Positions 5,920 through 21,476 of a DNA stretch of 37,600 nt are shown in pieces. The stretch's first letter is position 1; every line of letters starts with the position of its first letter. A program made the position numbers and the translations under genes. The notes beneath the pieces are model-generated. The model saw only the letters and a program-made list of their open reading frames with translations. It was not told where the DNA came from and did not search any database. Location of the stretch: positions 1 to 37,600 of the forward strand of contig CAJCIM010000204.1 of the NCBI GenBank assembly GCA_903970395.1. Direction: 5' to 3'. The DNA is from Acidobacteriaceae bacterium (GTDB lineage: Bacteria; Acidobacteriota; Terriglobia; Terriglobales; Acidobacteriaceae).

Positions 5920-7011
5920 TTACGGCTTCAGGACGATCTTCATCGAATCGGGTTGTGGATTGGAGGCGAGGTGGACGGCCTTCGCGGCTTCGTCGAGCGT
6001 GAAGCGGTGGGAGATGAGCTTGGTTAGGTCGAGCTTGCCGGAGCGGTAGCCCTCGAAGACGAGGTCAATGCCCTCCTGCTGGATGGCGACCGAGGCGGAG
6101 TAGGAGCCCATAAGGGTCTTCTCGTCCATGCAGACGGCGGCGGGGTCGAAGGGGGCGGTGCCGTGCTGTGTGCTGGCGAAGAGCATGACGCGGCCGCCTG
6201 GGCGGATGGCTTTCATCGCGGTGGCTATAAGGGCGTCGGCACCGACAGCGACGAGGGCGACGTCGGCGCCGCGGCCTTCTGTGGCGGACTTGCAGGCGGC
6301 TACGACATCTCCGCGGGCATCAAGTGGATGATTCAGGCCGAACTTGGCGGCGATGGCGTGGCGTTCGGGGTACATGTCCGAAGTCAACACGGTTGCGCCC
6401 GTTTGCGCGGCGAGTGCGGCCAGAAGAATGCCGATGCTTCCCTGCCCGATGACCAGGACCGTCTCGTCGGGCTGGAGGTCGAGGAGACTAATGGCCTTGA
6501 AGCAGGTGTTTACGGGCTCGATGAAGGCGGCCTGCTCGAATGGGATGTCGTTGGGGATGTGGATGAGGCCTGCGGGTGTTACACCGTCACCGACGATCCA
6601 GTCCATGACGCGGATGTACTGTGCGAAGCCGCCACCTGCGGGTTCGCCGACGCCGGCTGTGGTGCCGACTTTCTTGTAGGTCTCGCACTGCGCGAAGGTG
6701 TGTTTACGGCAGTAGAAGCAGTGCCCGCAGGGGATGTGGTGGAAGGCCATGACGCGGTCGCCGATGGAGAAGCCGCGCACGTTGTCGCCGATCGCGGCGA
6801 CGGTGCCGGCCATCTCGTGACCGAAGACGCGCGGAGCAGAGTGCGAACCGGTGTGGATCTTTTTGAGATCGGTGCCGCAGATGCCGCAGGTGTCGATGCG
6901 GACGAGGACTTCGCCGGGGCCGATGGCGGGGACGACGGCGCTCTCGGTTACGACGGTGTCTACGTCACGGTAGACCGCGGCCTGCATAGTGCTGGGAAGT
7001 GTCTCTCGCAT
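5920..7011 (-). CDS. Zinc-dependent alcohol dehydrogenase family protein
   Basis: This 363-residue medium-chain dehydrogenase/reductase oxidises an alcohol or polyol, or reduces a carbonyl, with NAD(P). The catalytic zinc site is Cys42 (TCGICGTD) with His65-Glu66 (GHE). Structural zinc ligands are Cys95, Cys98, Cys101 and Cys109. The Rossmann dinucleotide loop is IGQGSIGILLAALAA. The overall pattern is closest to sorbitol/threonine-dehydrogenase-like members, but the substrate cannot be read from sequence. The ATG at 7009-7011 is 26 bases after the stop of the nucleosidase gene, so the two are probably one leftward operon with the nucleosidase first. An in-frame Met at residue 9 is a possible alternative start. 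Confidence 0.88.
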   Translation of the reverse strand: MRETLPSTMQAAVYRDVDTVVTESAVVPAIGPGEVLVRIDTCGICGTDLKKIHTGSHSAPRVFGHEMAGTVAAIGDNVRGFSIGDRVMAFHHIPCGHCFYCRKHTFAQCETYKKVGTTAGVGEPAGGGFAQYIRVMDWIVGDGVTPAGLIHIPNDIPFEQAAFIEPVNTCFKAISLLDLQPDETVLVIGQGSIGILLAALAAQTGATVLTSDMYPERHAIAAKFGLNHPLDARGDVVAACKSATEGRGADVALVAVGADALIATAMKAIRPGGRVMLFASTQHGTAPFDPAAVCMDEKTLMGSYSASVAIQQEGIDLVFEGYRSGKLDLTKLISHRFTLDEAAKAVHLASNPQPDSMKIVLKP

Positions 7012-7037: not shown

Positions 7038-7724
7038 CTAGGATACCTGTTCCGCTGCGATGATCTGCGCGAGATGCGCGTGCAGGCGTTGCAGAGCAAG
7101 GTTGCTGTTACGTCCGAGTTCTGCGGCCTTCGACCAGGTTGCCGGGCGTAGCGCCGTGTGCAGAGCGAAGGCAGCGGTGCGGAACTCCCCTTGTGGGGTG
7201 GAGAAATGGTTGAGGCCTGCGAGTTCGAAGTCGTGTGCATCGGAGATGGCCTTGATGGCTCGGAAGCGCAGACCATGTGCGGTGGCGAGACGAGCGACGG
7301 TGGCGGCTTCCATGTCCACCATTACGGCGTTGTAGGTGGCGGCAAGGCGCTGCTTCTCGTGCGTGCTGGCGATGGTGTCTGTTGTCGCGAGGATGTTTGG
7401 TTCCGATGACGAGGTGGTGAAGCGCTCGCCGGTGTTGGTCGCGACGACGGTACCTGCTTCAGCGAGTTCGCCGGGGCGCAGAGAGCCCGTGCAGGAGCCA
7501 GCTAGGCCGATGGAGATCAGCGTTGTGACGTGAGCGGCGGCCAGTGCTGCTTCGACGGCCAGTGTGACCCGCGCGGAACCCATGCCCGCCGCGACGACGA
7601 TGGCGTGCGGCAGTGTGTGGAGATAGATCTTACGACAGAGGAGATGCGGATCGGGTTTGGTGCCACGGACGAGTGCGGCGATCTCGCGTGGGAGCGCGGC
7701 GATGATGGCGAGCGATGCGGACAT
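7038..7724 (-). CDS. Phosphorylase-superfamily nucleosidase, HpnG-like
   Basis: The 228-residue protein belongs to the purine nucleoside phosphorylase / MTA-SAH nucleosidase superfamily. GLAGS at residues 73-77 fits the conserved glycine loop. VDMEAATVA (137-145, Glu139) is the ribose-binding motif, and KAISDAHD (158-165) holds the catalytic Asp. Two identities are possible. One is MTA/SAH nucleosidase. The other is HpnG, which removes adenine from adenosylhopane. The long C-terminal tail after the SD motif (a Leu-Arg-Pro segment, then ELGRNSNLAL) is more like HpnG than MTA nucleosidase, and hpnH lies 10 kb away. The TACAAT at 7734-7739 (read on the - strand), nine bases before the ATG, could be a -10 box giving a nearly leaderless transcript. 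Superfamily is sure; the HpnG call is tentative. Confidence 0.8.
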   Translation of the reverse strand: MSASLAIIAALPREIAALVRGTKPDPHLLCRKIYLHTLPHAIVVAAGMGSARVTLAVEAALAAAHVTTLISIGLAGSCTGSLRPGELAEAGTVVATNTGERFTTSSSEPNILATTDTIASTHEKQRLAATYNAVMVDMEAATVARLATAHGLRFRAIKAISDAHDFELAGLNHFSTPQGEFRTAAFALHTALRPATWSKAAELGRNSNLALQRLHAHLAQIIAAEQVS

Positions 7725-15646: not shown

Positions 15647-16654
15647 TCATCTAAGTGACTTGGGTGGCGCAGGGGCGTAGCCGTTGGCAATGAACCATGC
15701 ACATGCGGCGCGGAGAGCGCTGTCGACGCTCATCACGTGGAGGCCGAGGTCGCGCTTTGCCTTTGCGCTGCCGGCGAACATCATCTTGCGGCCCATGCGG
15801 ACAGCTTCCACGGTGGCACGGGGTTCTTTGCCGCGAAGTTTGCCGGTGATGGTCTCGTCGAAAAAGGCGAATGCCATAGCGACGGCGTGCGGAACCCTCA
15901 TCGTCGGTGACGGCAGGCCGGTGATCGCTGCTAGTCGGTCGAGGATCTGCTTGAGTGTGAGGTTTTCGCCACCCAAAATGTACCTCTCGCCGGGGGTGCC
16001 GCGATCAAGCGCGACGAGGTGCAAGCGCGCGATCTCTTCCACGTCGACGAGGTTGAGGCCGGTATCGACGTAGGCTGGAAAGCTTTTATTGAGGAAGTCG
16101 ACCACGATGCGGCCGGTGGGAGTGGGCTTGGTGTCGAGCGCGCCGATGGGGGTGGTGGGGTTGAGGATAATGATGTGCTGGCCGCTGCGAGCGGCTTCGA
16201 TGGCGACCTGCTCGGCCAGCCACTTGGAGCGCTTGTAGTGACCGATCATATCGGCTTCGGAGACGGGAGCGTTTTCGTCAACGATGGTGCCGTCGTACTT
16301 GAAGCCCATGGTGGCGACACTGGAGGTGTAGACGACGCGCGGCACGCCGACCTCGCGGGCGAGACGCAGCAACTCGCGTGTACCCTCGACGTTAGCCTTA
16401 TACATCTCGGATGGATCGGGCACCCAGAGGCGGTAGTCTGCTGCGACGTGGATGAGGGCGTCACAATCCTGGAGCGCAGAGGCAAACGTTGCAGGGTTGC
16501 GGAGATCGCCGGTAACGACATCTGCGTTTTTGGGAAGATGGTTGCGGTTAGAGGTTGAGCGCGAGAGAAGGCGAAGCTCGGCTCCCTGCTGTGCAGCGAG
16601 CCGAGCTACATGCGTGCCAACGAAACCCGTGGCACCGGTGATGAAAAGCTTCAT
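15647..16654 (-). CDS. hpnA: Hopanoid-associated sugar epimerase HpnA
   Basis: HpnA is an extended short-chain dehydrogenase/reductase (NAD-dependent epimerase/dehydratase fold) found in hopanoid clusters; its exact reaction is not settled. The 335-residue protein has the N-terminal Rossmann motif GATGFVGTH (residues 7-15). It also shows HVAADYRLWVPDP and YTSSVATMGF, both typical of HpnA, and the catalytic Tyr and Lys in HYKRSK. The start is ATG at 16652-16654, six bases after the stop of the 152-residue gene. It is the last gene of the leftward operon ispH-shc-hpnH-unknown-hpnA, whose end abuts the glycosidase gene from the other strand. Confidence 0.9.
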   Translation of the reverse strand: MKLFITGATGFVGTHVARLAAQQGAELRLLSRSTSNRNHLPKNADVVTGDLRNPATFASALQDCDALIHVAADYRLWVPDPSEMYKANVEGTRELLRLAREVGVPRVVYTSSVATMGFKYDGTIVDENAPVSEADMIGHYKRSKWLAEQVAIEAARSGQHIIILNPTTPIGALDTKPTPTGRIVVDFLNKSFPAYVDTGLNLVDVEEIARLHLVALDRGTPGERYILGGENLTLKQILDRLAAITGLPSPTMRVPHAVAMAFAFFDETITGKLRGKEPRATVEAVRMGRKMMFAGSAKAKRDLGLHVMSVDSALRAACAWFIANGYAPAPPKSLR

Positions 16655-16660
16655 GCTAGG

Positions 16661-17119
16661 CTAGTCGAGCTTCTCCGGCTCGATCTGGATGTTGGTCTCG
16701 CCGGCGGCCTTCTTCTCCCAATATTTCTTGACCCACGCATCGAAGGTCTTGCCGGCGGCGGTATCACGGCCGGAGAAGCTGAGCGCAGCGATGTCGGCAT
16801 AGCTGACCATGACGCGCTCGTAGGTTTGACCATCCTTGGGCGTCGGCATGATGCGGACTACGGAGGCCTGGAGCGTGGGCTCGGAGCGGCGGTCGTAGAG
16901 GTAGCCCTCGACTGTGCTGCCGTCCTTGCGGGTGATGGTGACGTCGCCGCGGTAGTCGAAGGCCTTTTCGAGAGCGTCGCGCACCTCAGCTTCGGAGGCG
17001 AGTGCAGGAATCCAGCCTTCGAGGTTCTCGCGCTCACGACCAGCGATGTGTTCTAGATCATCGGCGGAGACCTGCTGCAACTGCTCGATCTTCAGGTGTT
17101 CCTGCTGTGCTGTAGACAT
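16661..17119 (-). CDS. Uncharacterised protein inside the hopanoid operon, 152 residues
   Basis: The start is ATG at 17117-17119 with AGGAG upstream, two bases after the hpnH stop. The frame runs further upstream into hpnH, but that part is Arg-rich shadow. The protein is soluble with no signal peptide. Residues 1-60 look helical and acidic (QLQQVSADDLEHIAGRE). Residues about 63-118 form a likely beta-rich domain: DYRGDVTITRKDGSTVEGYLYDR, then SVVRIMPTP and RVMVSYADIAALSFSGRD. This resembles an Sm-like small barrel, where strand - KDGS - strand is typical. The last 30 residues are charged (KKYWEKKAAGE). I know no named hopanoid gene like this. Its place between hpnH and hpnA suggests a role in side-chain assembly or in regulating or scaffolding the pathway. 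Confidence 0.82.
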   Translation of the reverse strand: MSTAQQEHLKIEQLQQVSADDLEHIAGRERENLEGWIPALASEAEVRDALEKAFDYRGDVTITRKDGSTVEGYLYDRRSEPTLQASVVRIMPTPKDGQTYERVMVSYADIAALSFSGRDTAAGKTFDAWVKKYWEKKAAGETNIQIEPEKLD

Positions 17120-17121
17120 GA

Positions 17122-18279
17122 TTAGTCTCCTGCCATGCTGCCGACGTTGGCGTCGAGTGTGGTGGTGACGACGACCGGTGTAGGCGCGTTGCCGATCTGT
17201 ACCAGCGGTGAGTGGCCTTCCGGCTTCCACTCGTTCAGGATCTTCTGCGCATCGGCGTCGGGGTAGAGCGATGGGAACATGTACTTCTTCGCTGTAGTGA
17301 TGAAGCCTTTGAGCGAACCGAAGTTGTAGTCGACGGCCGAGGCCTCGTGACCGGAGTGAACCATGCAATTGGCGCAGCGCGGGTTGCCGCTTTTGGCGCC
17401 GTACTCTTCCCACTTGGTGGCTTCGAGCATCTCGTCGAAGGTGTCAGCGTAGCCGTCCTGCAGGAGATAGCAGGGCTTTTGCCAGCCGAAGATCGAGTAG
17501 GTGGGCATGCCCCAGGGGGTGCACTCGAAGTTCTGCTTGCCCATCAGGTACTCGGAGAAGAGCGGATGGGTGTTGAACTGCCAACTCTTGTTGCGGTTCG
17601 ACAGGATAGCGCGGAAGAGGCGACGCGACTTGGCCTTGCCGAGGAAGTGGTTCTGGTCGGGAGCCTTATCGTAGGTGTAGCCGGGCGAGACCATCATGCT
17701 CTCGACACCAGCCGCCATGAGCTGATCAAAGTGCCGGCGAACCGAGTTGGGATCGGCACCGTCGAAGAGCGTGGTGTTGGTGGTGACGCGGAAGCCCGCG
17801 GCGACTGCGGCGCGGATACCTTCCATGGCGATGTCGTGGCCACCCTCGCGGCAGACTGCAAAGTCGTGGTGCTCCCTTTCGCCGTCGACGTGCACCGAGA
17901 AGCTGAGGTATTTGGACGGCTTGAAGAGGTGAAGCTTTTCTTTAAGGAGCAGCGCGTTCGTGCACATGTACACGTACTTCTTGCGCGCAACGAGGCCGGC
18001 AACGATCTCCGGCATCTGCGGGTGCAACAGCGGCTCCCCGCCGGGGATGGACACCATCGGCGCGCCACACTCCTCTACAGCCCTGAAGCACTGCTCGGGA
18101 GTGAGCTGGGCCTTGAGGATGTGCGCGGGATATTGGATCTTGCCGCAACCGGCACAAGCCAGGTTGCAGCGGAAGAGAGGCTCCAGCATCAACACCAGAG
18201 GATAGCGCTTGCGGCCCGAGAGCTTCTGCTTCAAGACGTAGGTCGCTACGGTGAACATCTGTGAGACGGGTACTGCCAT
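17122..18279 (-). CDS. hpnH: Adenosyl-hopene transferase HpnH (radical SAM)
   Basis: HpnH joins the 5'-deoxyadenosyl group of S-adenosylmethionine to diploptene, giving adenosylhopane, the first step of side-chain synthesis. The radical SAM cluster motif is C38-x3-C42-x2-C45 (RCNLACAGC), followed by SIPGGEPLLHP (the GGE motif) and SVHVDGEREHHD. A second group of cysteines near the C-terminus (CANCMVHSGHEA) is also typical. The N-terminus MAVPVSQMFTVATYVLKQK matches the family. The 385-residue length is close to usual, with a C-terminal tail of about 45 residues. It starts 51 bases after the shc stop in the same leftward operon. Confidence 0.95.
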   Translation of the reverse strand: MAVPVSQMFTVATYVLKQKLSGRKRYPLVLMLEPLFRCNLACAGCGKIQYPAHILKAQLTPEQCFRAVEECGAPMVSIPGGEPLLHPQMPEIVAGLVARKKYVYMCTNALLLKEKLHLFKPSKYLSFSVHVDGEREHHDFAVCREGGHDIAMEGIRAAVAAGFRVTTNTTLFDGADPNSVRRHFDQLMAAGVESMMVSPGYTYDKAPDQNHFLGKAKSRRLFRAILSNRNKSWQFNTHPLFSEYLMGKQNFECTPWGMPTYSIFGWQKPCYLLQDGYADTFDEMLEATKWEEYGAKSGNPRCANCMVHSGHEASAVDYNFGSLKGFITTAKKYMFPSLYPDADAQKILNEWKPEGHSPLVQIGNAPTPVVVTTTLDANVGSMAGD

Positions 18280-20456: not shown

Positions 20457-21476
20457 TCAGACAGTTGCCGTGAGACGTGGAGCAGCGGCGATGGCGGACA
20501 CGATCTCCGGCGGCAGGCCGAAGCGGACGTTTTCAGGCATCACTTCAACCTCTTCAACCGAACCGTAGCCGCGGCTCTGCAGATAGGCAACGACCTCCTG
20601 CACGAGGATCTCAGGGGCAGATGCGCCAGCGGTGATCGCCACTGTAACAACGCCCTCCAGCCAGCTGGGCTGGATGTCTTCTGCTTTGTCGATGAGGTAG
20701 GAGTTGGTGTCCAGGTTCTTGGAGACTTCAACCAGGCGATTGGAGTTCGAGCTGTTGCGCGAACCGACTACGAGGACGAGATCGGCACCGTGCGCGACGT
20801 TCTTGACGGCAGTCTGGCGATTCTCGGTCGCGTAGCAGATATCCTGCGCATGTGGGCCGACGATGTTGGGAAATTTCTTCTTCAGCGCCTCAATCATGTA
20901 CCGCGCCTCGTCGAGCGAGAGCGTGGTTTGCGTAAGGTAGGCAACCTTGTTCGGATCGGGGACGACCAGCGCCTCAACCTCTTCCACCGTGGAGACGACC
21001 TGCGTTACATCGGGCGCCTCGCCCTGGGTACCTTCAACCTCTTCATGGTCGCGGTGACCGACAAGTACGAGAGAGTAGCCTTGTTTGGCAAATTTGATGG
21101 CTTCGACATGCACCTTGGTAACCAGGGGGCAGGTGGCGTCGATGACCTTCAGGCCACGTTCCTTGGCCCGGTCGCGGACGGCCGGGGAGACGCCGTGCGC
21201 TGAGTAGATGACGCGGGCTCCGGCAGGAACTTCGTCTAACTCGTTGACAAAAATAGCGCCCTTTTGAGCCAGGTCGTTGACGACATAGCTGTTGTGGACG
21301 ATCTCTTTGCGGACGTAGATCGGCGCACCGAAGGTATCGAGGGCGATCTGAACGATATCAATCGCGCGGACAACGCCTGCGCAGAAGCCACGTGGCTTCA
21401 GCAGCAGAACGCGCTTGTTGTCGGATTGGCTGGTCGGGGATGTCGCGGCTACGGGGTCTGAGGTCGGAAAGCTCAC
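20457..21476 (-). CDS. ispH: 4-hydroxy-3-methylbut-2-enyl diphosphate reductase IspH
   Basis: IspH makes isopentenyl and dimethylallyl diphosphate in the last step of the MEP pathway with a [4Fe-4S] cluster. Its three cluster cysteines are Cys32 (PRGFCAGV), Cys116 (DATCPLVTKVH) and Cys214 (DICYATENRQ). Substrate-binding His61 (VHNSYVV), His94 (YSAHGVSP), His144 and the EVEGT motif are present, as is the SSNSNRL motif near 240. The 339-residue length includes about 20 extra N-terminal residues. The start is GTG at 21474-21476. It is the first gene of the leftward hopanoid operon, so precursor supply is tied to hopanoid synthesis. A TATACT box lies six bases before the GTG. Confidence 0.96.
   Translation of the reverse strand: MSFPTSDPVAATSPTSQSDNKRVLLLKPRGFCAGVVRAIDIVQIALDTFGAPIYVRKEIVHNSYVVNDLAQKGAIFVNELDEVPAGARVIYSAHGVSPAVRDRAKERGLKVIDATCPLVTKVHVEAIKFAKQGYSLVLVGHRDHEEVEGTQGEAPDVTQVVSTVEEVEALVVPDPNKVAYLTQTTLSLDEARYMIEALKKKFPNIVGPHAQDICYATENRQTAVKNVAHGADLVLVVGSRNSSNSNRLVEVSKNLDTNSYLIDKAEDIQPSWLEGVVTVAITAGASAPEILVQEVVAYLQSRGYGSVEEVEVMPENVRFGLPPEIVSAIAAAPRLTATV

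Follow-up and report, generated by a model that had tools for sequence, protein, structure and literature searches.

The small protein ORF152, encoded between hpnH and hpnA in the hopanoid operon of a bacterium from the Acidobacteriaceae, a family of soil bacteria, is probably a dedicated, non-catalytic partner of HpnH, which carries out the first step in building the side chain of hopanoid lipids in bacteria. As we picture it from sequence comparison and structure prediction, a small Sm-like barrel with two flanking helices would probably dock on the C-terminal tail of HpnH, contacting its PLVQI stretch, and would most likely hold the enzyme where diploptene is made and kept, at the membrane beside the squalene-hopene cyclase; alternatively, its job may be to hand the adenosylhopane product on. 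In two lineages, HpnH and ORF152 have merged into one chain. The original prediction had offered scaffolding of HpnH as one option, and the core of that idea, a dedicated partnership, is carried by two fusions, adjacency to hpnH in all copies examined and a motif in the HpnH tail, whereas physical binding is something we infer.

The gene and its operon

The window, that is, the whole stretch of 37,600 nucleotides that was analyzed, holds ORF152 among the following features:

15647..16654, minus strand: hpnA, hopanoid-associated sugar epimerase (TIGR03466, 457 bits against a cut-off of 368)
16661..17119, minus strand: ORF152 (very probably ug3), 152 codons plus stop
17122..18279, minus strand: hpnH, radical SAM adenosylhopane synthase (TIGR03470, 520 bits against a cut-off of 225)
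17125..17331, minus strand: C-terminal tail of HpnH past the TIGR03470 match (residues 317-385), with SPLVQI
17127..17131, minus strand: Shine-Dalgarno sequence AGGAG of ORF152, within the final hpnH codons
18331..20364, minus strand: shc, squalene-hopene cyclase (TIGR01507, 704 bits against a cut-off of 431)
20457..21476, minus strand: ispH, 4-hydroxy-3-methylbut-2-enyl diphosphate reductase (NCBIfam score above the cut-off)

The operon order is ispH-shc-hpnH-ORF152-hpnA, all genes lying on the minus strand and running in one direction. The ATG of ORF152 (17119) lies 2 nt past the end of hpnH, and hpnA starts 6 nt past the ORF152 stop; the original prediction had the bounds of the gene and both gaps right and gave no strand, which is minus. 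The spacing is likewise consistent with its suggestion that ORF152 is made together with the side-chain enzymes. The strong ribosome binding site that it described is found before ORF152, where AGGAG, 7 nt ahead of the start, makes a good Shine-Dalgarno sequence, but not before hpnA, for which the nearest GGAG lies 18 nt upstream of the start. ORF152 is a real gene and a chance reading frame is excluded, because a scan of genome contigs found relatives encoded in 419 stretches (the best 80 of which were retained) and because a Shine-Dalgarno-like tetramer stands within 16 nt upstream of 106 of the 127 distinct ORF152 genes from the loci fetched, with start codons picked by script, whereas 14% of random 16-mers contain one.

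The gene is very probably ug3, which the accessible portions of Sinninghe Damste et al. (2017; PMC5462960) describe as being of unknown function, located directly behind shc-hpnH in hopanoid cluster B of subdivision 1 Acidobacteria, and absent in subdivision 3. This identification goes by position and taxon rather than by the locus tags of the published figure, and ORF152 is found behind shc-hpnH also in Terriglobus roseus and Acidobacteriaceae KBS 83, both named subdivision 1 strains. The label "undescribed", under which the protein was first proposed, is therefore too strong for the gene, very probably noted in 2017, but holds for the protein, for which those portions of the paper report neither a sequence nor a fold, a fusion, a tail or a role. 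A literature search covering mainly openly accessible papers found no further published work on ORF152 beyond ug3; as far as that search reaches, the predicted fold, both fusions and the link between tail and ORF152 are new. Elsewhere in the window, a phosphorylase whose best match is HpnG (7041-7724, minus strand; 77 bits, below the cut-off of 187) lies beside a 363-aa zinc-type alcohol dehydrogenase (5923-7011, minus strand) that recalls ug2, a protein of about 350 aa described beside hpnC in the accessible portions of the same paper (PMC5462960).

Adjacency to hpnH and distribution

First, each of the distinct ORF152 genes (127 of 127) has hpnH as its immediate upstream neighbor on the same strand or as part of one reading frame, with a median gap of 2 nt (100 nt or less in 119 of the 127, 217 nt at most, and a 4-nt overlap in 17). 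hpnA, present in 104 loci and always on the same strand, keeps a variable distance, within 300 nt in 94 of the 104 and about 1 kb from ORF152 in two loci (L018 and L075) that preserve the adjacency to hpnH. ORF152 is tied to hpnH more than to hpnA, since hpnH always adjoins it and the distance to hpnA varies. Could ORF152 nevertheless be a chance passenger of the operon whose housekeeping role has nothing to do with it? Gene order can indeed be preserved by descent within one clade, but family-wide co-occurrence with HpnH, the two fusions, and the persistence of ORF152 beside hpnH in those very loci where hpnA has moved away render this reading scarcely credible.

Profile matches to ORF152 occur in 52 of 396 Acidobacteriota genomes, namely 49 of its own family, one of family f37 (G240), a fragment in G275, and G230, whose match (E 0.009) looks spurious, as does a weak second match in G010. 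We take it that all own-family genomes of the sample (49 of 49) carry ORF152, because the non-matches listed, sorted by kinship, start with class-mates. HpnH is present in 99 of the 396 genomes, including the identical 49 own-family genomes and G240, so the check run on hopanoid operons across Acidobacteriota found ORF152 not absent from related operons. No ORF152 turned up in 49 of these 99 HpnH genomes, with the DNA behind each of the 49 checked, and the HpnH genomes outside the own family are mostly without it; conversely, no ORF152 without HpnH was seen among the loci examined. In an earlier sample ORF152 occurred in 33 of 61 relatives, and the five own-family genomes without it there likewise have no HpnH and are 54-89% complete, so that their absence is soft. 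HpnH is likewise missing from the 14 genomes of family f2, which belongs to the same order, the class-mates G055, G056 and G059 have HpnH and no ORF152 match, and in family f37 the ORF152 domain is confined to one of 15 genomes (G240). The profile scan covered Acidobacteriota, and absence beyond that phylum is not inferable from it. No relatives of ORF152 were found in plasmids; 36 stretches of viral contigs fit a pattern, of which none was confirmed as a relative; and ORF152 does not accompany the six HpnHs encoded on plasmids of Pseudomonadota and Streptomyces.

The match in G275 (L148:3-416, minus strand) is a contig-end fragment, without any Pfam domain, in which about 100 aa of other sequence precede the beginning of a similar barrel domain (AFDYRGNVTLSL..GEALEGFLF); one of 12 genomes of its order matched, by this same fragment, from which the barrel domain may exist outside HpnH contexts. 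In G032, a partial ORF152-like piece (L114:3340-3441, minus strand) sits downstream of the intact gene at a distance of about 0.7 kb and, with about 35 residues, 71-74% identity and an internal stop, is a degraded duplicate. Terriglobus roseus DSM 18391 carries the stretch ispH-shc-hpnH-ORF152-hpnA in two copies about 460 kb apart (L057, NC_018014.1 2321001-2331450; L059, NC_018014.1 2781520-2791969), which are 99.98% identical over 10,450 aligned bases, reaching both ends of the compared loci.

Fusions of HpnH and ORF152

Second, the two proteins occur as single chains. One in-frame fusion, of 509 aa, is encoded on the complete chromosome of Acidobacteriaceae bacterium ZG23-2 (L105, repeated as L151), and another, of 487 aa, is found in G051 (L111), the one genome that represents family f3, another family of the same class. 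Because the two sit at different places of the HpnH tree, which comprises 67 of 175 distinct proteins, they most likely stem from two separate events. The HpnH part of L111 is grouped among HpnHs of the window's own family (97/93 for the seven-member group, 91/14 for the precise position of L111), a placement that suggests transfer. Repeated fusion of a stand-alone protein to one enzyme is classical evidence that the partners, here ORF152 and HpnH, cooperate. Among the loci examined, ORF152 was seen fused neither to HpnA nor to a DNA-binding domain. In the same tree, one clade (100/99) holds the ORF152-positive HpnHs together with eight HpnHs of family f37 that go without ORF152.

A tail motif in HpnH that accompanies ORF152

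Third, the HpnHs that go with ORF152 carry a distinctive tail. Those with a separate ORF152 extend at least 58 residues beyond CxxCMVHxG, and L-[VI]-x-[IL] lies 45-49 residues past this anchor in 125 of 125 assessable ORF152-associated HpnHs, fusions included (L-[VI]-x-I in 123 and LVQL in two; mostly PLVQI). From residue 21 on after the anchor, the motif is found in none of 57 HpnHs without ORF152, a set made up of 48 from the phylum sample, three further class-mates and six from Pseudomonadota and Streptomyces; 50 of them end before the motif position, and seven (L185, L275 and five proteobacterial ones) have a tail of at least 58 residues but no motif. L065, with ORF152, and L226, without it, have no CxxCMVHxG anchor and were left out. 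The pattern does appear 17 residues past the anchor in L183 (LVSI) and L165 (LVSL), both without ORF152, at a place within the end of the core and not in the tail. Shuffled tails contain L-[VI]-x-[IL] in 3.7%.

Both fusions retain the motif ahead of the joined ORF152 domain, which suggests that the putative contact is important even when the partners are covalently joined. Since the HpnHs with ORF152 share one clade with most of family f37, the association between tail and ORF152 rests on few evolutionary events. A single case bears on the reverse path: in G317 (L185), of the same genus as G240, ORF152 was not detected and the HpnH tail equals that of G240 in length and has no LVQI, as may happen when loss of the partner is followed by loss of its docking site.

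Other HpnHs end differently. That of G055 (L275), without ORF152, has a 77-residue tail rich in Asn, Gly and His from which the motif is absent; five proteobacterial HpnHs (L266, L267, L269, L270 and L271) share a different tail of 62-92 aa with a common QRPAExVFSxHV stretch; and the Streptomyces HpnH (L268), like most ORF152-less HpnHs of Acidobacteriota, stops soon after the core. HpnH tails thus fall into lineage-specific types.

Correlated evolution within the operon

In the 61 loci with a complete set of the five genes, ORF152 and HpnH distances correlate at r 0.435 once IspH, SHC and HpnA are regressed out, a value that none of 999 permutations reach; the residual correlations of ORF152 with SHC, HpnA and IspH are 0.06-0.11. 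Adjacency alone is a poor explanation of this, because HpnH and its other neighbor, SHC, show a residual correlation of 0.06. The subtypes of HpnH do not agree: within one the values are 0.27 for ORF152 with HpnH and 0.40 with SHC, and within the other they are 0.02 with HpnH and 0.50 with HpnA. Overall, the distance correlation weakly supports a partnership of ORF152 with HpnH.

The tracking of HpnA in that second subtype, together with the location of ORF152 between HpnH and HpnA in the window, would suit a protein that performs or assists a later step, for example the conversion of ribosylhopane to bacteriohopanetetrol, whose enzyme is called unknown in the accessible portions of two papers (PMC5462960; PMC12583986). 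However, ORF152 is missing from many HpnH lineages, its fusion partner in the loci examined is HpnH and not HpnA, and no catalytic or cofactor family is recognized in it, with a cysteine of any kind in just 17 of 117 members; a role in a later step is accordingly quite improbable. The lack of a match to an enzyme family and the scarcity of cysteines are also why we take ORF152, as a partner of HpnH, to be probably non-catalytic.

Sequence family and predicted fold

Searches of ORF152 against Pfam, NCBIfam, PHROGs and PDB sequences gave nothing over the cut-off, neither a known hpn family, in keeping with the original prediction, nor an unrelated household family. An AlphaFold2 model built with 28 homologues (mean pLDDT 68, pTM 0.49, about 73-91 in the barrel) predicts a helix at 43-54, strands at 59-64, 69-78, 87-92, 103-106 and 110-115, and a C-terminal helix at 126-138. 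The N-terminus (1-38) is variable and of low model confidence, residues 16-38 and the last eight being unreliable, and the conserved motifs are FDYRGD and F-[ST]-G-[RK]-D-x-A-x-G. A model of the fusion (pTM 0.60) has the same order of helix, five strands and helix; its residues 355-401, with the PLVQI stretch, have pLDDT below 50, and no docking is visible.

Foldseek returned no match at E 0.001 or better for the ORF152 model; ribosomal chains head its list, and Sm-like proteins (2e12, SmAP and Hfq) come next at probabilities of up to 1.00. VIA-align ranks the WYL domains of DriD and PafBC first (Z 8.1-8.6), then Hfq and 2e12 (Z 7.8-7.9), although values near 8 may just reflect the common arrangement of small barrels. 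With fair confidence we assign ORF152 the fold of an Sm-like barrel, without implying membership in a named family. The small barrel of the original prediction therefore stands as a predicted fold, but not as a significant sequence match nor as a Foldseek hit at E 0.001 or better.

Two further candidates were rejected. The C-terminal helix, with its aromatic face of F126, W129, V130, Y133 and W134, was considered for membrane binding, but its hydrophobic moment, 0.42 over 125-136, drops to 0.19 over 125-140, which is too weak. Membership in DUF6982 (PF22478) failed, the L111 domain scoring 12.3 bits against a gathering cut-off of 24.5, the best E among 28 members being 0.09, and hhalign against 13 members giving a probability of 9.8%.

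In DriD and PafBC, the WYL domains are barrels that sense ligands or nucleic acids, and it is conceivable that ORF152 is a sensor or regulatory subunit whose WYL- or Sm-like barrel binds a small molecule, such as a hopanoid, SAM or a nucleoside product, and thereby adjusts HpnH activity. That the best structural alignments are to these domains speaks for this reading, and fusion to an enzyme would suit a regulatory domain; we still consider it unlikely, given that the Z of about 8 is perhaps mere small-barrel likeness, that Pfam gives no WYL match, and that no fusion to a DNA-binding domain occurs in the loci examined. The Sm-type small barrel, for its part, is a fold best known from RNA biology, and ORF152, with its predicted helix and five strands like those of Sm proteins and Hfq, might instead bind RNA in the manner of Sm, Hfq or ROF and regulate hpn mRNA or termination. 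Among the Pfam matches below threshold, ROF comes up most often (in 3 of 28 members, with a best E of 0.078), while unrelated models reach 0.013-0.014 in one or two members. But the protein is acidic (pI 4.9; median 5.05 over the 117 family members), is linked to a single enzyme gene, with whose product, HpnH, it is fused in two cases, and has no significant match to Hfq, LSm or ROF, so that an RNA-binding role is very improbable; the shared fold is in itself uninformative about RNA. The suggestion that ORF152 links RNA or ligand sensing to hopanoid synthesis thus found nothing in its favor beyond that fold, in a protein that is acidic and fused to an enzyme rather than to a regulator.

Proposed role

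If ORF152 is a partner subunit of HpnH, what might it do? HpnH adds a 5'-deoxyadenosyl radical to diploptene (PMC12583986, accessible portions), and since diploptene is a hydrophobic lipid, ORF152 may position HpnH or pass substrate or product. The chemistry itself presumably needs no partner of this type, because the same portions of that paper cite expression work in E. coli with the HpnHs of Streptomyces and Zymomonas (PMC12583986). A bolder version, which we regard as rather unlikely, is that Acidobacteriaceae have a two-subunit side-chain enzyme in which a recruited Sm-type barrel grips the C-terminal peptide of HpnH and organizes SHC, HpnH and HpnA/HpnG at the membrane, possibly as a ring with several HpnH copies.

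HpnH commits hopenes to C35 bacteriohopanepolyols, which serve as molecular fossils and biomarkers. Should the partnership hold, a lineage-specific subunit of HpnH would partly explain how a water-shy substrate is handled, and ORF152 would be a clear knockout target in cultivated Granulicella, Edaphobacter or Terriglobus.

Comparison with known systems

To ROF (PF07073) and DUF6982, the likeness of ORF152 amounts to sub-threshold matches in three and two of 28 members, respectively, far below the cut-offs. WYL regulators such as DriD and PafBC give the best VIA-align scores (Z 8.1-8.6 over 69-77 residues), but ORF152 has no Pfam WYL match and no DNA-binding domain in its 152 aa. The Sm/Hfq/LSm proteins share with it the predicted helix and five-stranded barrel, as exemplified by 2e12 (XC5848; Foldseek probability 1.00, E 9.6e-3; Z 7.8 over 74 residues), whereas ORF152 differs from them in having no significant sequence similarity, in being acidic, in carrying an extra C-terminal helix and in being tied to an enzyme. 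If our reading is correct, ORF152 would be a case in which the small-barrel fold was recruited as the partner of a lipid-acting radical SAM enzyme.
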